This document shows positions 49,901 to 64,000 of a stretch of 64,000 nucleotides of DNA, piece by piece. The DNA lies in NCBI GenBank assembly GCA_003635195.1, contig PYIY01000208.1:1-64000 (forward strand), given 5' to 3'. The stretch comes from Candidatus Poribacteria bacterium (GTDB lineage: Bacteria > Poribacteria > WGA-4E > WGA-3G). Each line of letters opens with the position of its first letter. Position 1 is the first letter of the stretch. The translations under genes were made by a program, and so were the position numbers. The notes under the pieces were generated by a model. That model did not search any database and was not told the origin of the DNA. It saw nothing but the letters and a program-made list of their open reading frames with translations.

Positions 49901-50450
49901 TGAGCAAAATCTCGACACTTTGATTCAACAGGTACACGAGAACTTTCCTGAAATAACCACAGAATCAACAACGGAGCCGACACTTCGTAAATATGCTAAA
50001 AATTTCGCCAATTCTGAACTTGGACACATCGCACTTGATGCGTCCCAAACCCGTCCCAATCAGCAAATCCATGCAAACATCAACGGACATATTATTCATG
50101 GCAGATTTGATAGACTCTTTAAAGATGAAACTGGACACTGGCAGGTAATTAATTACAAAATCGACGATGCTCAGGATTCAGATGTGTATGACCCAGAAAT
50201 GGAACTTTACAGTCTGCTTTTGCATCAACGCTATCCTGAACAACCGACACTAACGATTAACCTATTTTTTACTCAACAAGATCAATGCATACAAAAACAT
50301 TTCAGCATAGCAGAATTGCTGGACGTTAGAGAACAATGGAAGCAAAAAATCTCGGCACTGCAGCGGGGCAATTATAATAAAAATCTTGATCATTGCCGTT
50401 CTTGCCCTTACGCAAACCCCGATGGACAATGCATAATTACCGAATCATAA
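46968..50450 (+). CDS. UvrD/AddA-like helicase with C-terminal PD-(D/E)xK nuclease-like domain
   Basis: This 1160-residue superfamily 1A helicase has Walker A TAGAGSGKTT (20-29), motif Ia TFTEKAAAEMKERI, motif II MVDEFQDTNELQ, motif III IVGDPKQSIYAFRGAD and late motifs VQIMTIHAAKGKEF and LFYVGTTRAKDRL. The C-terminal nuclease-like part has GRFDRLF and QVINYKID, where the usual DYK is NYK, so cleavage may be impaired. Four Cys (YARCPLR, HCRSCPYANPDGQC) fit an Fe-S cluster as in AddB or Cas4. It probably takes part in double-strand-break repair. No AddB partner is adjacent. AAGGAA sits upstream. Confidence 0.9.
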   Translation: MQLTPSQEDALNIEKHVCVTAGAGSGKTTVLVQRYLKILRERDLTPREIVAITFTEKAAAEMKERIIEEMAEETENVGVEYSNSLQRFRDAMNSAHISTIHAFCASILREFPFQAHVPANFSIVQGIDQKLLLQKTIRETLKTIATNEEDEHRPELTRLLQRYGGQQKLTDFFSDLVEKRDSLERLVKKMYSNPNDTEIRTNLERQIREELMSKIDVAEFIRCLNAVLEVAKGTKAENAKNLIKQLEALYKQNPDSPEGLNLLKEIGDLITIQNGSIATSGFLPKSVDRTGIVDQIAFLEPTAKKIKDVPILEKEKDENKKADVETDNEDKDDDFLISTTRDLLTLYKRILKDYQNAKLSQSTLDFNDLQLKTRDLLRDNEEIRQKLVARYKFYMVDEFQDTNELQYDLVMCLTNKLKSANLFIVGDPKQSIYAFRGADVRVFNKTREKIVENNGLAISLKENFRALQGPIRFTNYFFDHLMRDGSENEFEVPYESLIKARHTDADGAVEIFLGQNGEENIDEYTLITNRIKNMKRNGDTVWVRGENSAEVERPIEYGDIAILIRSRTHLPNIEHALLEVGIPHLTTGGIGFYQRQEIYDIWNYLSFLNIPAENQTSLGGILRGPAFGISDTELYEISLQDGADLWEKAQNYQKPSEQLRNAIDTLKKHIEIAQRTPVNQLIVTIVNQTGMIGTLKTGKQGDQRWANYQKLLEHARSFDSEETKQTLTDFIEFLDILIEEERREGQAPVETSNKAVQIMTIHAAKGKEFPIIILPCLNRKGQTDSEPFINEALGIGFSPLKPDDGYRKTEPSIIAHMKNRSREKEVAEKKRLFYVGTTRAKDRLILSGTLSEKGEAQEMLKWLDTYLGICGGENDLPSLPFKLNVFRQLEDSNSTDENLDDITPIEFPEDLPSGLEPTGISAAFSVSELANYARCPLRYQLENVLRIPTNGQEEADIDKDELDNAIRYTLRRIKQPLTEQNLDTLIQQVHENFPEITTESTTEPTLRKYAKNFANSELGHIALDASQTRPNQQIHANINGHIIHGRFDRLFKDETGHWQVINYKIDDAQDSDVYDPEMELYSLLLHQRYPEQPTLTINLFFTQQDQCIQKHFSIAELLDVREQWKQKISALQRGNYNKNLDHCRSCPYANPDGQCIITES

Positions 50451-50461
50451 GGAGAAAAGCA

Positions 50462-51166
50462 ATGAAAAAATTAGGACCAATCATCGCAGTTATCACCCTT
50501 GTCTGCTTTTCAATAGCGGCATGGCAACCGAGTTTTGCAGGCACATGGCGCGACGATTTTGAAGACAAAGACACCCGCGAATGGGAAATCTTTAATATCG
50601 ACCGGAAAGTTGAAAAATGGTGGATCGACGACGGTGAAGCCGTCGGCGAAATCTTCTTACCCGGCTTTATGAGCCTCTGGATAACAGGTGAACTCTCATG
50701 GAAAAACTACTCCGTCTCCTGTCGCGCAAAGTTGGTGGAAGACAAGGATGAACCGCCTACCATTGGACTCACACTCCACGACAGAGGCGAAGAGGATAGC
50801 CGCTACCTCTTTTTTATTGATTATATTTTTGGCACCGTCCGAATTGTGAAGGCAGTTCAAGACGATTGGGGCATCATCACCTACCTATTTGACGCAGAAA
50901 TTGATACGTGGTACCAACTAACCGCCACCATCTACGAAGATGGCACACTCGAATTCAAAATAGACGATGAGATATTTACCGCTGTTGATGAAGACCTCTT
51001 AAAAGGTGGGCAAGCCGGTCTCGTTGTCGCAGACGGACGCGCACACTTTGATGATTTTGAAATCACTGGGGATAATGTTCCCGACGGTGGACCCGGAAAA
51101 CCACGTCCTGTCGAACCGCAAGCCAAACTCGCAACCACATGGGGAAAAATTAAGAAAATGGAATGA
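50462..51166 (+). CDS. Secreted DUF1080-like protein with KLATxWG tail, copy 1
   Basis: The signal peptide ends near SFAGTW. The body (about 26-215) is a predicted concanavalin-like beta sandwich, with DDFEDKDTREWEIFN, WYQLTATIYEDGTLEFKID and AGLVVADGRAHFDDFEI, recalling DUF1080/LamG-type glycan-binding folds. After NVPDGGPGKP the tail is EPQAKLATTWGKIKKME. The start at 50462 has AAGGAG upstream. The next gene is a diverged copy. Confidence 0.8.
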   Translation: MKKLGPIIAVITLVCFSIAAWQPSFAGTWRDDFEDKDTREWEIFNIDRKVEKWWIDDGEAVGEIFLPGFMSLWITGELSWKNYSVSCRAKLVEDKDEPPTIGLTLHDRGEEDSRYLFFIDYIFGTVRIVKAVQDDWGIITYLFDAEIDTWYQLTATIYEDGTLEFKIDDEIFTAVDEDLLKGGQAGLVVADGRAHFDDFEITGDNVPDGGPGKPRPVEPQAKLATTWGKIKKME

Positions 51167-51253: not shown

Positions 51254-51961
51254 ATGATGAAAAAATGTCTTATCTTCGGACTTATTGTTTGCGGCGTTGC
51301 TTTGAACCAATTCGCACTTGCAGGCACTTGGAAAGATAGTTTTGAAGATGACATCATATCGGAGTGGACAATCTTTAACGAATCTCCTGAAAAAGAAAAG
51401 TGGTGGATTCATGAAGGCGAAGCTATCGGAGAAACGGCTAAAGGCGCGAATTTAGTGAGTTTCTGGTTAACAGGTGATAGTAAGTGGCAGAATTATACGA
51501 TGTCCTGTCGCGCGCAAATTACTAAATTTAATAATGATGCTACTGGTTTCGGACTTTTACTCTATTTTAGAAGTGAAGAACTCTCCGGATATATGTTCAG
51601 GATTGAACATGCGCCTGACCGTGCACGAATTTTAAAAATACTCCCACCTCCACAGCCGACGGTCCCATTAGGAGGTTTGGACATCGTGGTAGAAACTGAC
51701 AAGTGGTACCAGTTGGCTGCTACAGTTTACGAAAACGGGACCCTTGAATTCCAAATTGATCAGGAGATCCTTAGAGTCGTTGACCATAACCCAAGGCTAA
51801 AGAGTGGACAAGCTGGACTTGCTGTCGGAAGTGGCCAAGCCCGGTTTGATGATGTTGAAATCACAGGTGCAAATATCCCCAATGGGGGTCCCGGAAAATC
51901 ATTTTCCGTTGAACCGCGAGCCAAACTCGCAACTACATGGGGGCATCTGAAAAGCTATTGA
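51254..51961 (+). CDS. Secreted DUF1080-like protein with KLATxWG tail, copy 2
   Basis: It has the same layout as the preceding protein: signal peptide ending near ALAGTW, KDSFEDDIISEWTIFN, WYQLAATVYENGTLEFQID, SGQAGLAVGSGQARFDDVEI, linker NIPNGGPGK, and tail EPRAKLATTWGHLKSY. The tail and linker are the best kept parts of the duplicated pair, while the body has diverged and has a Pro-rich insert (KILPPPQPTVPLGG). AAAGGA precedes the ATG. The Gfo/Idh/MocA gene follows by 16 bp. Confidence 0.8.
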   Translation: MMKKCLIFGLIVCGVALNQFALAGTWKDSFEDDIISEWTIFNESPEKEKWWIHEGEAIGETAKGANLVSFWLTGDSKWQNYTMSCRAQITKFNNDATGFGLLLYFRSEELSGYMFRIEHAPDRARILKILPPPQPTVPLGGLDIVVETDKWYQLAATVYENGTLEFQIDQEILRVVDHNPRLKSGQAGLAVGSGQARFDDVEITGANIPNGGPGKSFSVEPRAKLATTWGHLKSY

Positions 51962-55859: not shown

Positions 55860-56708
55860 TCATTGCTTCAGTCGTCCCCATAGCGTCGCGAGCTTCCCTT
55901 CTGCTTCAACTGCTGCGAATTCGCCATCGGTCTTTGCACCATTTTTACCCATTAGATGGTAGGCGTTGCCTGATGTATCCAAGAACTTCTGTACTCCCCT
56001 CGCTTCATCAAAATGCCACAACGCAACTGTCTTTGCGTCATTCTTGAACTTTTCGCGCGGCGTGAAACCGCGTTTGGCGGTATTGTAACGCGCAACCTTT
56101 GAGATGCGGACCTCATCAATATAGCCCGAAAAATGACCCCAAAAATGACCAGCATGAAACTCAATGTTCTCTCCAAACCCACCGATTGTAAAAGCCTGCG
56201 GATGCCCGGCGTGTGAGATATCGTCTGCAAGAATTATTTTTTGCCGCCCTAAGGCGCGCACGTCATCGTTAACGATGATTGTTGTGTTCTGTTCCTTTCC
56301 TCCCTGAAAAGCGATGTGATGCCATTGATTCGGGGGAAATTTTATGTGACCGAACGCTATTAGAACGTGCGCTGCGCCAAGAGCAACGTGCGCTCCGCCC
56401 ATTAGCTTTAAATTGTTATGATCATGGTCCCAGACATGCATCCGCACCTGTTGACTGAGAATTATTGCGTTTACATTTTTGTCAGGCAGTGTGGTTGGAT
56501 ATATCCACGCTTCAAAGGTGAAATCTGTGCCTTTTGGCATGAGGAGCCCGAAGGTTTCAAAGTCCAAGATAGCGTGGTCGTCTACTCCATCAAGCACTAA
56601 ATAGTTACCACCTGCGGGGGATGGTGGTGGTACCGCTTCAGCACTCAGCGGAACCAAAACCAGCAGAAAAAGGCAAGCAAAAATTGACTGATTTCGTAGA
56701 TTTTTCAT
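55860..56708 (-). CDS. Secreted LamG-domain protein with KLATxWG tail
   Basis: The signal peptide (1-25) ends near AEAVPP. The LamG domain covers about 32-255 (YLVLDGVDDHAILDFETFG, FTFEAWIYPTTLPDKN, WHHIAFQGGKEQNTTIIVN, GYIDEVRISKVARYNT). After DTSGNAYHLMGKNG comes the tail EAEGKLATLWGRLKQ. It lies 27 bp after the secreted Kelch gene on the same strand and probably belongs to the operon led by the sigma-Kelch factor. It is likely a surface protein binding glycans or protein. Confidence 0.85.
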   Translation of the reverse strand: MKNLRNQSIFACLFLLVLVPLSAEAVPPPSPAGGNYLVLDGVDDHAILDFETFGLLMPKGTDFTFEAWIYPTTLPDKNVNAIILSQQVRMHVWDHDHNNLKLMGGAHVALGAAHVLIAFGHIKFPPNQWHHIAFQGGKEQNTTIIVNDDVRALGRQKIILADDISHAGHPQAFTIGGFGENIEFHAGHFWGHFSGYIDEVRISKVARYNTAKRGFTPREKFKNDAKTVALWHFDEARGVQKFLDTSGNAYHLMGKNGAKTDGEFAAVEAEGKLATLWGRLKQ

Positions 56709-56735: not shown

Positions 56736-57812
56736 TTATTTCTGGTTTTCTGCTTTGAGTTCACCCCAGTATGTCAGAAGTTTGCCCTTCGCTGTGACAG
56801 CACGAAATCCGGTGTCAAACGCCTCAACGATTGGCGAAAATTTAAAATCACCTATAATACCACCTAAGGTATAGATTTTACCATTAGCAACTGCTGCCAT
56901 TATCAACTTAGGAATCGTTAGAGGTTCTATTTGATGCCATTTTTTGCCTGTTGGATTATAGACATCTACAGCATCAGTGTCTTTAATCTCATTATTAATG
57001 CCACCCAATGTATAAATCTCGTTACCAACGGCAACGGTTAGAAAACCAAATTTGAACATTGGCATGTCAGGGAGCTGATGCCACTGGTCGGTTTTCGGAT
57101 TATATTCTTCAATACGTGTGACAAAACGTCCCGCAAGGTCACCGCCGAATCGCACCAGACCACCGAGAACATAAATTTTGCTGTCTACAACGACAGCATC
57201 ACTCACACTTCGTGCTGTCGGCATGTCCGCGCGTTTTTCCCATCTATCGGTCAACGGATCGTAGACCTCAACCAGACCTGTAATAGCCTTCCGAGCAAAT
57301 ACTCCGTTTTTATTAACTTCAATACGTGTTCCACCAATGAGGTATATCTTTCCATCAACAACCGCCGTGGCAAACGGTATACGGAGTGTTGGCATATCCG
57401 GCTTCTTGACCCATGTATCAGTTTGTGTGTCATACACCTCGACAGTTTTGTGGTATCTTTTTACACCCCAGCGCCCTTTGTAGTCATAACCCCCAAAGAC
57501 GTAGATTTGGTTGGAAAAGACTGCGGTTCGCGGCGCAATCCGCGGGGTCGGCATCTCTGCGGCTGCGTGCCATGTGTTCGTCTGTGTGTCGTAGACATCT
57601 ACCGTTGAGAGTGCGGCACCCCGTCCGCCTATATGTTTCTTGTGGTCGAAACCACCGAAGAGATAAATTTTCCCACCTACAGCAGCCGCAGGACCAGCAA
57701 ATCTCCATGTTGGTAGTGTAGTTACCTGTTCCCAACCCCCCGCAAAACTGCTGGAAGCGACAACAAATAAGAGGGTAAAAACCCATCGCAAATACCTATG
57801 TTTTCTGAGCAT
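56736..57812 (-). CDS. Secreted Kelch-repeat protein with KLATxWG-type tail
   Basis: A signal peptide (about 1-25) is followed by six Kelch repeats, e.g. AVGGKIYLFGGF, VFSNQIYVFGGY, VVDGKIYLIGGT, VVDSKIYVLGGL, VGNEIYTLGGI and VANGKIYTLGGI, enough for one complete propeller. The tail is KGKLLTYWGELKAENQK. The gene follows the sigma-Kelch gene by 27 bp with AGGAG before the ATG, so the operon encodes the same type of propeller twice: once attached to the sigma factor and once free and exported. Confidence 0.88.
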   Translation of the reverse strand: MLRKHRYLRWVFTLLFVVASSSFAGGWEQVTTLPTWRFAGPAAAVGGKIYLFGGFDHKKHIGGRGAALSTVDVYDTQTNTWHAAAEMPTPRIAPRTAVFSNQIYVFGGYDYKGRWGVKRYHKTVEVYDTQTDTWVKKPDMPTLRIPFATAVVDGKIYLIGGTRIEVNKNGVFARKAITGLVEVYDPLTDRWEKRADMPTARSVSDAVVVDSKIYVLGGLVRFGGDLAGRFVTRIEEYNPKTDQWHQLPDMPMFKFGFLTVAVGNEIYTLGGINNEIKDTDAVDVYNPTGKKWHQIEPLTIPKLIMAAVANGKIYTLGGIIGDFKFSPIVEAFDTGFRAVTAKGKLLTYWGELKAENQK

Positions 57813-57839: not shown

Positions 57840-59789
57840 TCAATGATTGCTGTTTTTAATCGTTTCCCTCGTTTGCACAGGTTTCCCCATTGGGTTGACG
57901 CTCCGAGAAACCTCACCTGTGCCGTATACGTCAATCATTGTAAGTGGTCCAAAAACAGCACTAATGCCCCCAAAGATATAGATACTCTCGTTTATTACTT
58001 CAGCCCTATGTATCCATCTACCAATCGGTATGTCTGGTTCCTGTGTCCAACGGTCAGTTCCAGGATCGTAAACTTCAACTGTTGAGAGATACTTGAACTG
58101 ATCATCGCCCCGAAAACCACCCCCTATTACGTAAATTTTTCCATTGATGACACTTGTCGTGTGCCCTACTTTCGGAGCAGGCATTTCAGTTATTTCTGTC
58201 CACTGATTGTTCTTTGGATCAAACACTTCAACACTGGAAAGAACGGGACCTCCGTGATCTGGAATATAGGGCCATCCCAACCCACCCATCACATAAATCT
58301 TTCCATTCACAACACTAACTGACGCGCCACCACGAGCATGATTCATACTTTTCGCTTTTGCCCACGTATCAGTGGCTGGATCATAGACATCCACGGTATT
58401 TAAGCACCACTGTTTTCTGTTAGCAGCTGATCCACCAATGATATAGATCTTTCCATCCACGATACAGGTACTGTTACTACTCCTTGGCACGGGCATGTCC
58501 GCTTTCTGGGTCCATGTGTCGGTAACTGGATCATACATTTCTATAGTTGGGAGAAGTTTACTACTGTTCCCCCAACCGCGACCACGCTGAATCTTCTTTC
58601 TCTCTGCTCCCCCAATGGCATAGATTTTCCCATCCACAACCAAGGCAGACACACCAGCCCGCGCTGTCGGCATATCTGTCTTTCGCTCCCATGTATCGGT
58701 TTTAGGGTTATACATTTCTACCGTGGCAATGGCTGTGTCACCAAACTTGTCAACTTCGCCGCCTATTGCGAATACTTTTCCGTCCACAACACACGTCCCA
58801 AAGTTAAATCGGGCTGTTGGCATGTCTGTTCTTGATGTCCACTGTTTGGCAGCATTTTCCAGTGCGACGGATACCGAAGTTACATTAGAAACTTGGGTGG
58901 CAGCACGGTTGGTTTCACTCGGACTGGTATCCCGTCCGATCTGATTTCGCACAGCAGGTTTCGTTGCTATATCAAGGATGATAGGCGCGTCGACGATTTG
59001 AATCGTGGGTTCAGATTCCGCCTCAAAACTATACGGTTTCTGGAAACGGGTGAGGTGTTGTTCACTCGCGCCGAGCAGCAAGGCAATCAAAACCGCAGCC
59101 GTCCCCAAAGCCATCCATGGGAGGAACGGTTTAGATGCCGGAGAGGGTGTGGGGGTCATGTCAGCGACTTGGCGCATGACCTTCTCACCTAAACTCGCCG
59201 GTATTTGTACACCACCGAGAACTTCTTGAATCATCAGTTCCTCATCCTCTTGCAAACGCTTTCGTCCACGAAGAAGTCTACTTTTAATTGTACCCACTGA
59301 CACCCCTAAGAATTTCCCAATCTCTTTGGTCGTCATTTCCCCGAGGTAGTAGAGCGTCACCACCGTGCGTTCACTCTCGGGGAGTTTCGCGAGCAGTTTT
59401 TTGACGAGTTCACGGTGCCGTTCAGTGCGTTCTGTTTCTTGTTTTTCTGATACATGATGTATATAAGAGGCTTTTTCAATTTCTTCCACAGGTGTGTCCT
59501 CCAGCGATTGCGTTATGAGCCTTCTTTTCCGACGCCAATCAATACAAAGCCGATCTGCAATGACATAGAGCCACCCGGCAAACTGATTGTGATTCTTGAG
59601 CGTTGAAAGTTTTTTGTAGGCTTGAAGGAAGGTGTCTTGGGTAATATCTTCAGCAATGTGAAAATCCCCGAGCTTTCGCCATACGAGCGCGTGCACGCTT
59701 TTCTGGTGTCTTTGGAGCAAGATACCAAACGCTGTATCGTCCCCCGCTAAGGTTCGCTGAATCAGTTGAACATCGTCTTCTCGTTCCAC
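57840..59789 (-). CDS. ECF sigma factor-TM-Kelch propeller fusion
   Basis: Residues 1-185 are an ECF sigma factor: HIAEDITQDTFLQAYKK, LPESERTVVTLYYLGEM and VGTIKSRLLRGRKRLQ. A membrane helix lies at 223-242 (FLPWMALGTAAVLIALLLG), then SFEAESEPTIQIVDAPI. From about 316 to 640 there are six Kelch repeats (VVDGKVFAIGGE, VVDGKIYAIGGA, IVDGKIYIIGGS, VVNGKIYVMGGL, VINGKIYVIGGG, VINESIYIFGGI). This places a sigma factor inside and a complete propeller outside in one polypeptide, a possible one-component envelope sensor. The start is GTG with AGGAGG 8 bases before it. No stop interrupts the junction. It is the first gene of a minus-strand operon. Confidence 0.9.
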   Translation of the reverse strand: MEREDDVQLIQRTLAGDDTAFGILLQRHQKSVHALVWRKLGDFHIAEDITQDTFLQAYKKLSTLKNHNQFAGWLYVIADRLCIDWRRKRRLITQSLEDTPVEEIEKASYIHHVSEKQETERTERHRELVKKLLAKLPESERTVVTLYYLGEMTTKEIGKFLGVSVGTIKSRLLRGRKRLQEDEELMIQEVLGGVQIPASLGEKVMRQVADMTPTPSPASKPFLPWMALGTAAVLIALLLGASEQHLTRFQKPYSFEAESEPTIQIVDAPIILDIATKPAVRNQIGRDTSPSETNRAATQVSNVTSVSVALENAAKQWTSRTDMPTARFNFGTCVVDGKVFAIGGEVDKFGDTAIATVEMYNPKTDTWERKTDMPTARAGVSALVVDGKIYAIGGAERKKIQRGRGWGNSSKLLPTIEMYDPVTDTWTQKADMPVPRSSNSTCIVDGKIYIIGGSAANRKQWCLNTVDVYDPATDTWAKAKSMNHARGGASVSVVNGKIYVMGGLGWPYIPDHGGPVLSSVEVFDPKNNQWTEITEMPAPKVGHTTSVINGKIYVIGGGFRGDDQFKYLSTVEVYDPGTDRWTQEPDIPIGRWIHRAEVINESIYIFGGISAVFGPLTMIDVYGTGEVSRSVNPMGKPVQTRETIKNSNH

Positions 59790-60365: not shown

Positions 60366-60534
60366 TGTTTTTGCTGGGGCGTTTCTTGCGATCTGCATTC
60401 CTAACCGAACCGGATCCTGAAAAAGGACGAAAAACTCTATAATTTCTTAAAACTGAACGGCCCTGTGTAATCGGAAAACATCTTGACTGATGGATTACGA
60501 TAAATCGGTTAATCGGTTCGTGGAAATACACATC

Positions 60535-61707
60535 ATGGCTAAATCCGTCAAAGCACTCATTACGCCAGAAGTCCTCAAATGGGCGCGTGAAAGACGCATC
60601 AGATTAGAGATTGACTACGCGGCAAAAAAATTAAAAATAGATCCCGAACGCCTTGAAGCATGGGAAAACGGGACAGAACAACCTACTATTTCACAATTAA
60701 AGAAAATTGCTAAACTCTATAAAACACACATCTCTGTTTTCTATCTGCCGGAACCACCTACAGGTTTTCAATCACTTATAGATTATCGGGTATTGTCAGA
60801 ATCATCTGATATCAATGAAGAACAGACGTATAAATTGAATGCCAATATTATTGAGGCATTTGAAAGACGAGAAATGCTCATTGACTTTTACAAATTGTTA
60901 GAGGAGTCTCCCCCTCAAGTAAAACTAAAAGTCAGTGAAGAAGAAGATCCAGTACGAGTCGCGCAAAAGATAACGGAATTTCTGGAGTTCGACAGGACAC
61001 AATTACAGCAAGCGAATGATCCATACGCCGCATTGACATTCTGGAAACAAACTATTGAAGCAAAAGGAATTCTTGTCTGTCATACTTCTGTAAATACACA
61101 TCTCTCTGTCGAACTGAAAACAGTACGTGGGTTTTGCATTGCGCATAGACCTTTTCCAGTGATCGTACTGAACTCTAAAGACAGCCCCTATGGTCGTATC
61201 TTCACGATCATTCACGAGCTGGTCCACATCGCTATCAGGAAAAGCATTATTCAGAATACTGGATTCAGCCGTATAGAAGATCCAGCTTTGAATGAAACCG
61301 AAGTTTTTTGCAACCAAGTGGCTGCTGAAGTTTTAGTCCCTGAAAATGAGTTGTTAGAAGTGGTCAAGCTGCAGATGCTAAAAAAAGAACTATCCAGAAT
61401 TTCCAAACACTTTCATGTGAGTTCTGAAGTTATCATGCGGCGGTTGTCAACACTCGGTAGAATACCACCACAATACTATGAAACATATAGGAAATTCCAG
61501 CAAGAAAAGTATAAGGGAAAATCTAAACCGTCTGGGGGTGTTCGACCATATCACAATCGTCTTCTTAATACTTCGGGTGAATATTTCGCTCGGACTGCTT
61601 TTACAGCTTACTATGAAGACAAGATCACAATTTCTGAATTATCTTCTGCTTTTTCTAACTGTGATACAAAACATCTTTCTAAAATTGAGAGTGCTATCTT
61701 CGCATGA
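60535..61707 (+). CDS. XRE-type regulator with ImmA/IrrE metallopeptidase domain
   Basis: The N-terminal helix-turn-helix (LEIDYAAKKLKIDPERLEAW) is followed by an ImmA/IrrE-type Zn peptidase with HELVH (IFTIIHELVHIAI) and downstream FCNQVAAEVLVPENEL. Such COG2856-type proteins act as antitoxins or as repressor-cleaving proteases. The start at 60535 (MAKSVKALITPEVL) fits family members; a start 45 bp earlier is possible. It overlaps the next gene by 4 bp (ATGA), a typical toxin-antitoxin layout, here with a DUF4411 protein. Confidence 0.88.
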   Translation: MAKSVKALITPEVLKWARERRIRLEIDYAAKKLKIDPERLEAWENGTEQPTISQLKKIAKLYKTHISVFYLPEPPTGFQSLIDYRVLSESSDINEEQTYKLNANIIEAFERREMLIDFYKLLEESPPQVKLKVSEEEDPVRVAQKITEFLEFDRTQLQQANDPYAALTFWKQTIEAKGILVCHTSVNTHLSVELKTVRGFCIAHRPFPVIVLNSKDSPYGRIFTIIHELVHIAIRKSIIQNTGFSRIEDPALNETEVFCNQVAAEVLVPENELLEVVKLQMLKKELSRISKHFHVSSEVIMRRLSTLGRIPPQYYETYRKFQQEKYKGKSKPSGGVRPYHNRLLNTSGEYFARTAFTAYYEDKITISELSSAFSNCDTKHLSKIESAIFA

Positions 61708-62201
61708 ACTTGTTTAACCAAGACAAGATAGTTTATAGTCTGGATACAAGCTCACTAATTGAAGCATATCGCCTTCTGTATCCAATGGAAAACTTCCCAG
61801 CCTTGTGGCAAGAATTGGAGAAACTGATAACAAATGATCGACTTAAAATGTCTGAGTTCGTTTTTGAGGAAGCTATGCGGGATGAAGTTTTAGATAAGTG
61901 GTGTCGTGACAAAGGATTGAAACCATATCTTGAACTGAAGGTTGATGATTCAGACCAAATAGTAGTTCATAATATTTTATCAGAGTACTCAGGAATGCTA
62001 AATCTTAAAAAAGGGACATCAGGAGTAGATCCATGGGTTATAGCTTTAGCAATGAAATTTCAAAATGGTGTTGTTGTAACGGAAGAAAAATCAACCGGAA
62101 ACCTGCAACACCCAAGAATCCCTGATATATGCAAGGTTTACAATATTGAATGTATCACGATAACTGGTATTGTAAGAAAAGAAAATTGGATATTTGAATA
62201 G
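61704..62201 (+). CDS. DUF4411 (PIN-like) protein, probable toxin
   Basis: The 165-residue protein matches DUF4411: KIVYSLDTSSLIEAYR with an early Asp, FVFEEAMRDEVLDKW, VDPWVIALAMKFQNGVVVTEE, and the end CKVYNIECITITGIV. These are the positions of the acidic residues of PIN-like RNases (D, E, D). It is coupled to the ImmA gene through an ATGA overlap. Families of this pair are predicted type II toxin-antitoxin modules; toxicity is inferred, not shown. Confidence 0.82.
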   Translation: MNLFNQDKIVYSLDTSSLIEAYRLLYPMENFPALWQELEKLITNDRLKMSEFVFEEAMRDEVLDKWCRDKGLKPYLELKVDDSDQIVVHNILSEYSGMLNLKKGTSGVDPWVIALAMKFQNGVVVTEEKSTGNLQHPRIPDICKVYNIECITITGIVRKENWIFE

Positions 62202-62283: not shown

Positions 62284-64000
62284 GTGAATTCGCCCAAACG
62301 CCCAAACCAAGATGCCCTCTATCAAGCACTCAATATCTATTGCGATGCGATGCGTCCGTTTATTCTCAGAAACCTAAAAACGGTGCATAGCTTATCACCA
62401 GAAGATCAATTTCAAAATGAAGCGGACATAGACTTTGGCGACTTCCCACATCTCTTCAGAAAGTACTGGCACGATGCCTTTAAACAACGCTTCGATCCAG
62501 ATCGGGATGTTCGCAGTGCTGTGGGCATAATAACTGAAGCGCGAAATAACACCTTCCATACCGAAACAGAAGACCTCACTTCAGGATATGCCTTGGCTCG
62601 GCTTCACGAAATTGCCGATATACTCGGACAAATCAATGTCCCTGAACAAAAACAAAAAGTCGAAGCCATCCGCGATAAGTTGTTAGCCAGTGCCGCATCA
62701 ACTGCAGAGGTAAAACCGATACTACCACGCAGAAAGGTAACGGAGCTCACCCCGTGGCGCGATGTCATACGTCCCAATACCGATGTTATCGAAGGCACCT
62801 TCCGAAAGTCGGAATTCGCTGCGGACCTCCAAGAGGTTTTTGAGGGAAGAGCGAAGACTCCAGAATACGGCGAAACCGACATCTTTTTCGATCAGACCTA
62901 TATCACCCCTGGACTTCGAGAATTATTAATCAATACTTTAAAGCGGCTCGGTGGCAAAAGTGGTGACCCAGTTATCCAGCTCAAAACCGGTTTCGGGGGT
63001 GGAAAAACGCATAGTCTTATTGCGCTCTATCATCTCGTTACTGGGATAAATATCCTCAGAGACCTTCCAAGGGAGGGTAAGTTCGCGCGGCTTCGGGAAG
63101 AAATAGATGATATCCTGGAGGAAGCAGAATGGGATCCTGACACGCCGCTTGATGCCAATGTCTCTGTTCTCGTCGGCACTTATCTTTCGACGACCGATGC
63201 AGATGAAACCAAACAGGGAGACCCGCTCAACACACTTTGGGGGATGATGGCGGATCAACTCGGTGGACAGGATGCCTATAACATCATCGGTAAAGCTGCA
63301 CGGAAAGAGAGGGCACCCGGTGGAAAGCAGTTGGACGAACTTTTTGAACAGGTTGGTCCCTCTGTCATCCTAATAGATGAACTTGTCGCCTACGTCCGTA
63401 ACGTGCAAGGCGTTACGCGAGAAAGCATCTATACCTTTTTTCAGACCCTCACAGAGTCCGTAAACAGATCCCAAAATGTTACGCTCGTTGTTACGTTACC
63501 AGAGGGACAGGTGCAAGCTGGGGGAGAAGGTGGGATAACTGTTCTTGACACGCTTGAGTCTATCCTTGAACGGATTGATGCTGTCTCCATTCCCTTAGAA
63601 GTTGACAATGCATTTGAGGTGGTGCGCAGGCGGTTATTCGGTAGTGTAATTGACGAGACAGAACGCGACCTGACCTGCGAAGCGTTCCGAAAGATGTATC
63701 AGAACTCGCGCGGTGAATACCCTGACAACGTCAGCGATCAACACTATCTGCAGCGGATGAAAGATTGCTACCCGATCCACCCTGAGATATTTGATCGACT
63801 CTTTGAGGACTGGGCAGTGATTCCCGGATTTCAACGGACCCGAGGTGTCTTGCGGATCATGGCAACCTGCATCTCTCGGCTCTACCAAGAACAGGATCCC
63901 TCTCTGTTGATAATGCCAGCGAATCTCACACTCGACGATCCGGCACTCGCCGACGAATTCACCAGACTGCTTGCCAAGTCCGGAGGCAATTGGGACCCTG
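62284..64000 (+). CDS. DUF499-type AAA+ ATPase with Swt1-like HEPN N terminus (partial)
   Basis: The frame is open to the window end (572 codons). The N terminus (ALYQALNIYCDAMRPFILRN) leads to ITEARNNTFHTE, whose R87-N-N-T-F-H92 fits the Rx4H motif of HEPN RNases as in Swt1-like domains. An ATPase domain follows with Walker A GFGGGKTH (236-243) and Walker B VILIDELVAYV (Asp365, Glu366). The C-terminal part is cut off. Family knowledge: DUF499/COG1483 ATPases occur in defence islands, often with DUF1156 methylases. The start is a GTG with weak support; an ATG 66 bases later is an alternative. Confidence 0.78.
   Translation, partial: MNSPKRPNQDALYQALNIYCDAMRPFILRNLKTVHSLSPEDQFQNEADIDFGDFPHLFRKYWHDAFKQRFDPDRDVRSAVGIITEARNNTFHTETEDLTSGYALARLHEIADILGQINVPEQKQKVEAIRDKLLASAASTAEVKPILPRRKVTELTPWRDVIRPNTDVIEGTFRKSEFAADLQEVFEGRAKTPEYGETDIFFDQTYITPGLRELLINTLKRLGGKSGDPVIQLKTGFGGGKTHSLIALYHLVTGINILRDLPREGKFARLREEIDDILEEAEWDPDTPLDANVSVLVGTYLSTTDADETKQGDPLNTLWGMMADQLGGQDAYNIIGKAARKERAPGGKQLDELFEQVGPSVILIDELVAYVRNVQGVTRESIYTFFQTLTESVNRSQNVTLVVTLPEGQVQAGGEGGITVLDTLESILERIDAVSIPLEVDNAFEVVRRRLFGSVIDETERDLTCEAFRKMYQNSRGEYPDNVSDQHYLQRMKDCYPIHPEIFDRLFEDWAVIPGFQRTRGVLRIMATCISRLYQEQDPSLLIMPANLTLDDPALADEFTRLLAKSGGNWDP

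Follow-up and report, generated by a model that had tools for sequence, protein, structure and literature searches.

Known DUF499 Systems

The fusion of a HEPN domain to a DUF499 ATPase, and the idea that the fused domain acts as a suicide RNase, have been known since 2013 (Anantharaman et al. 2013, PMC3710099). In that survey, the bacterial DUF499-fused HEPN was listed as active on the basis of its sequence, while the HEPN of Swt1 was considered inactive. The Ava_2192-type fusions described there share with the locus studied here a Swt1-like HEPN domain with a conserved RX4H motif and a DUF499 AAA+ ATPase, encoded beside a DNA methyltransferase. However, they belong to restriction–modification operons with an SNF2 helicase, whereas the poribacterial operon has no such helicase and carries a GIY-YIG gene after the methyltransferase. 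The DUF499 ATPase itself is homologous to the ORC/Cdc6 ATPases (PMC7641849).

A more recent survey of Type-1 BREX-related (BR) systems found an N-terminal HEPN on the ATPase in 1370 of 2446 taxa and proposed that it serves as a last-resort suicide effector (PMC12839542, 2026). These systems resemble the poribacterial locus in combining a DUF499 ATPase, often with HEPN, with a DUF1156 methyltransferase, but all of them were described with a Swi2/Snf2 helicase, which is missing here. The main text of that paper makes no mention of GIY-YIG, Poribacteria, Latescibacteria or Chloroflexi. The Hma system is defined by the HmaA helicase, HmaB methylase and HmaC ATPase (PMC8565338). Homologues of HmaB and HmaC are present in the poribacterial operon, but the Hma order of helicase, methyltransferase and ATPase is replaced by ATPase, methyltransferase and GIY-YIG; because HmaA is missing, the operon is a variant rather than a strict member of the Hma/Type-1 BR group. 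A GIY-YIG fold also adjoins a DNA methyltransferase in Type II restriction–modification systems with R.Eco29kI; here, in contrast, the ~130-residue nuclease is little more than the bare domain and is linked to a large AAA+ ATPase with HEPN. Within the open-access literature, we came across no account of GIY-YIG as a component of a DUF499 or DUF1156 system. Provisionally, then, what is new is limited to the helicase-less GIY-YIG branch, the fusion itself being known.

The HEPN-ATPase Gene and Its Upstream Neighbours

The window, that is, the whole 64,000-nt stretch of DNA analysed, ends inside the gene of interest. The open reading frame starts with GTG at 62284 and passes the end of the window. 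The contig contains it in full (62284–65562), with 1092 encoded residues, the first 572 of them inside the window. The contig ends at 65723, 161 bp beyond the gene. The features of this region are as follows:

60490..61707, + strand: HTH and ImmA/IrrE (Peptidase_M78) protein, RosmerTA-antitoxin-like, upstream neighbour (Pfam, PADLOC)
61704..62201, + strand: DUF4411 protein, upstream neighbour, forming a toxin–antitoxin-like pair with the ImmA/IrrE gene (Pfam)
62284..64000, gene continuing to contig base 65562, + strand: HEPN-DUF499 AAA+ ATPase, HmaC-like (ORF, Pfam, PADLOC)
62326..62634, + strand: Swt1-like HEPN domain, residues 15–117 (Pfam profile, AlphaFold model, PDB match)
62542..62559, + strand: RX4H motif R87-N-N-T-F-H92, predicted RNase active-site residues (conservation)
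62989..63015, + strand: Walker A, GFGGGKTHS, residues 236–244 (invariant in 12 homologues)
63223..63960, + strand: portion of the DUF499 profile matched within the window, residues 314–559 (Pfam match)
63364..63384, + strand: Walker B, VILIDEL, residues 361–367 (conserved in homologues)

The original prediction, made from the sequence alone, had placed a HEPN motif ahead of an AAA+ domain with intact Walker motifs. This arrangement was borne out: Walker A (GFGGGKTHS) is intact and conserved in the alignment of homologues, as is Walker B (VILIDE), and the protein matches the DUF499 profile of Pfam (2e-26) and, over residues 154–1088, the HmaC profile of PADLOC (7e-223). When the first 572 residues of the HEPN-ATPase were compared with PDB sequences, no match was returned.

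The DUF4411 gene overlaps the HTH-ImmA/IrrE gene by 4 bp, and the HTH-ImmA/IrrE protein also matches the RmrA profiles of PADLOC. We considered this pair as a core part of the system and rejected it, as it is missing beside most members of the clade described below and was found in part of the Poribacteria only.

The Downstream Operon and the Contig Break

In congeners, the ATPase gene is followed by a variable Rpn-like gene, a DUF1156 methyltransferase, a gene for a ~130-residue protein and then conserved metabolic genes. The same series, from the Rpn-like gene to the metabolic genes, lies at the end of another contig of the source genome (C12), so that the operon is split over two contigs, and its joining to the contig of the window (C208) is based on synteny. 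The tail of C208 resembles the congeners over its first 36 bases only. The C12 spacer matches them up to tens of bases from the ATPase stop, and a transposase-like reading frame lies farther on. The most likely reason for the break is therefore an insertion element between the two contigs, and such an element may uncouple the expression of ATPase and methyltransferase in the source strain. The contig ends on either side of it, just past the ATPase stop, are at L006:6564-6724 and L015:10757-11335.

The DUF1156 adenine methyltransferase matches the PADLOC HmaB profile at 2.6e-265, and its motifs DPF.GGG and DPPYY are retained in nearly all clade members. The Rpn-like gene was tried as a core part and discarded: it belongs to a multi-copy family in the source genome, and in other taxa that position is empty or taken by different genes. 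Read from the sequence, the operon thus consists of the HEPN-DUF499 ATPase, a variable-gene slot, the DUF1156 adenine methyltransferase and a small GIY-YIG protein, with no SNF2 helicase. Among selected neighbours scanned with Pfam, no PglZ or iSTAND gene of the Type-3 BR core was seen. The original prediction had also suggested a role in the response to phage, and the content of the operon (HmaC and HmaB homologues, a DNA methyltransferase and a nuclease) points the same way. The features that set the operon apart, its lack of a helicase and its GIY-YIG gene next to the methyltransferase, were out of that prediction's reach, as these genes lie on the other contig.

The variable slot lies between ATPase and methyltransferase (L119, L122, L127, L135, L104) or between methyltransferase and GIY-YIG (L078/L141). 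Its cargo includes DUF433, AAA_15 (OLD-like), DUF1828, a ClpP-like protease, an NYN nuclease, Rpn-like and Fic genes. Elsewhere, at L009:1397-2614 (contig C145 of G000), a homologue of SAVED/HNH-like CBASS effectors lies directly upstream of a separate HmaB–HmaC pair that has no HEPN.

A Helicase-Less Clade with GIY-YIG

The ATPase tree and the loci around it covered 78 fetched relatives together with our own and the congener loci. These fall into one clade from Poribacteria, Latescibacterota and Chloroflexota, in which the count covers the 37 rows whose downstream sequence is 4.5 kb or longer, and another from Bacillota, Acidobacteriota, Actinomycetota and others, in which it covers the 21 rows whose upstream sequence is 6 kb or longer. 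The GIY-YIG gene was present in 33/37 loci of the first clade and 0/21 of the second. The SNF2 helicase, usually fused to a PD-(D/E)XK nuclease, showed the reverse distribution, with 0/37 and 20/21, respectively, as judged by HmaA profiles only. The Fisher p values for this contrast, 4e-12 and 1e-14, overstate the independence of the observations, because the rows share ancestry and one sequence is entered twice, as L078 and as L141 (the latter from the Poribacteria chromosome OY282444.1). The split between the clades had a support of 84 in a quick first tree with a distant paralogue as outgroup, and the clade had 100/100 in a more careful second tree of 44 chosen rows without that paralogue. 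Relatives with a named source are Candidatus Poribacteria, from which the source genome is taken to be poribacterial as well, and many of these metagenome assemblies come from marine sponges.

HEPN was found in 42/42 rows of the clade with an intact start, compared to 1370/2446 of the Type-1 BR taxa (PMC12839542); the relatives were found by ATPase-peptide patterns rather than by HEPN, although they were ranked by whole-protein score, which may still give an advantage to members with HEPN. Four fully flanked members of the clade have no GIY-YIG: one is decayed, one has a pentapeptide protein instead and two have no methyltransferase. At L132:16267-16932, a pentapeptide-repeat protein overlaps the end of the methyltransferase gene, with no GIY-YIG. 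The Dehalococcoidia loci L138 and L139 encode a HEPN-ATPase, with no GIY-YIG and no recognised methyltransferase within ~9 kb.

The locus might instead be an ordinary Hma/Type-1 BR system, with its helicase-nuclease located elsewhere in the genome or lost at contig breaks, and with GIY-YIG as a bystander. Indeed, the source genome holds a full-length HmaA on contig C92, and HmaA genes occur in several other carriers of the operon as well. However, other DUF499/DUF1156 sets in the source genome and in several congeners can own these HmaA genes, and at the thresholds used HmaA was absent genome-wide from nine genomes (G001, G011, G024, G031, G033, G063, G064, G067 and G068), each of them a carrier of the operon including GIY-YIG. 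From these nine genomes, we rejected a helicase acting in trans as a general rule. GIY-YIG also follows the methyltransferase across three phyla, which speaks against a bystander. We therefore regard this explanation as unlikely.

The GIY-YIG Protein

The ~130-residue protein was identified as GIY-YIG by Pfam, which matched 27/32 family members, and the conserved G-Y, Y-G, R, E and N positions are present in the family. The predicted fold gave its best PDB matches to the GIY-YIG domains of UvrC (probability 1.00, E = 1.2e-4), followed by R.Eco29kI. The protein apparently has no DNA-recognition domain of its own; since its length has room for hardly more than the catalytic domain, recognition of a site probably depends on a partner. 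The HEPN-ATPase was present in 18/20 relatives bearing the same GIY-YIG family. In G009, where the ATPase is split, only a remnant of the methyltransferase is left and GIY-YIG is absent, as if the operon decays as one unit.

The match to R.Eco29kI, itself a GIY-YIG restriction enzyme, is consistent with another arrangement, in which the locus combines two functions: the methyltransferase and GIY-YIG would form a Type II-like restriction–modification pair, as with Eco29kI, and the HEPN-ATPase would be an independent abortive-infection gene that comes into play if restriction fails. The two Dehalococcoidia loci in which the HEPN-ATPase occurs away from any recognised methyltransferase fit such a division. 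Against it, every known DUF499 system links its ATPase to a methyltransferase (PMC12839542), as this locus does, and the small GIY-YIG protein probably depends on a partner. On balance, a two-function locus seems improbable.

The HEPN Domain

The HEPN domain was recognised by the Swt1-like HEPN profile of Pfam (HEPN_Swt1, PF18731) over residues 15–117, with E = 4.5e-5 and a score of 24.1 bits, slightly below the 27.5-bit cut-off. This profile comparison had been suggested as a check on the original prediction; the score rises to 30.1 bits once the neighbouring in-frame pieces are joined, and the HEPN domains of congeners score above the cut-off. A bare RX4-6H motif was set aside as evidence for HEPN, as it says little: two occur in the 572 residues, while 1.9 would be expected from composition. 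The stricter RN...H pattern has an expected count of 0.025 in the same length.

The predicted motif R-N-N-T-F-H at residues 87–92 is real, and the profile, conservation and fold show that it is more than a chance occurrence. H92 is kept in 80/80 aligned rows and R87 in 79/80, the exception being a leucine in L109. In 62 HEPN domains (a set that excludes L109) with a mean column identity of 35%, D50, R87 and H92 are the only invariant columns. The original prediction named a model lacking the HEPN fold as the result that would speak against it; instead, AlphaFold produced an all-helical bundle of six helices (pLDDT 86.7, pTM 0.80), and its best match among 350,542 PDB chains was yeast Swt1 (4pqz; probability 0.77, TM 0.51/0.55). 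With an E value of 0.5, the Swt1 match is supportive rather than decisive.

That the domain is a structural, RNA-sensing or dimerisation part rather than an RNase, as proposed for eukaryotic Swt1, is very unlikely: the nearest solved structure is indeed Swt1, whose HEPN is considered inactive, but the RX4H motif lost in Swt1 is the most conserved feature of the HEPN here, and the bacterial DUF499-fused form was listed as active by sequence (PMC3710099).

L109:607-3873, the sole HEPN with R87 replaced, has its methyltransferase split over two frames at the same locus and is perhaps a decaying copy. HEPN_Swt1-like domains without the DUF499 ATPase occur in other proteins of ~240–860 residues in the genome and its relatives (e.g., L008:1261-2514).

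Proposed Mechanism

We consider it probable that the gene encodes the ATPase subunit of a chromosomal, restriction–modification-like anti-phage operon from a helicase-less branch of the Hma/Type-1 BR (DUF499) systems, working as follows. The methyltransferase, whose motifs are intact, would mark self DNA. On unmarked, invading DNA, the ORC/Cdc6-like ATPase and the target-recognition part of the methyltransferase would assemble, and the assembled ATPase would position GIY-YIG, a predicted nuclease from its fold and residues, to nick or cut that DNA. In this way, GIY-YIG may assume the DNase function of the absent helicase-nuclease. Activation of the ATPase would presumably also free the HEPN RNase as a second, cell-arresting or last-resort effector, as proposed in PMC12839542. 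ATPase-controlled RNA cleavage as a phage response, as originally predicted, is a plausible hypothesis and one that was essentially already published in 2013 and 2026.

More tentatively, with confidence falling a little short of even, we propose that these loci represent a distinct, undescribed DUF499 subtype, in which the HEPN-ATPase, the DUF1156 methyltransferase and the stand-alone GIY-YIG are the entire machinery, no SNF2 helicase is needed and the AAA+ ATPase couples self/non-self DNA recognition to both DNA cutting and RNA cleavage, spread among phyla that share the sponge habitat. As DUF499/BREX-related systems have been described as Snf2-helicase-based, a monophyletic helicase-less branch would be a natural minimal version. 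Its three-gene operon could be cloned, addressing what the DUF499 ATPase does alone and whether HEPN is the suicide effector proposed in 2013. In Poribacteria, Latescibacterota and Chloroflexota, the branch would be an additional defence type, one that is overlooked when helicase, methylase and ATPase are all required.

Other Features of the Window

Several apparently secreted proteins (50393–51166, 51254–51961, 55860–56708 and 56736–57812) share a C-terminal motif of the (T/L)xWGxLK type, with examples including TTWGKIKKM, TTWGHLK, ATLWGRLK and TYWGELK. The motif might serve as a tag for sorting or attachment. At 57840–59789, a single chain combines an N-terminus resembling RNA polymerase sigma factors with kelch-like or similar repeats, an arrangement also seen at L007:877-3195.
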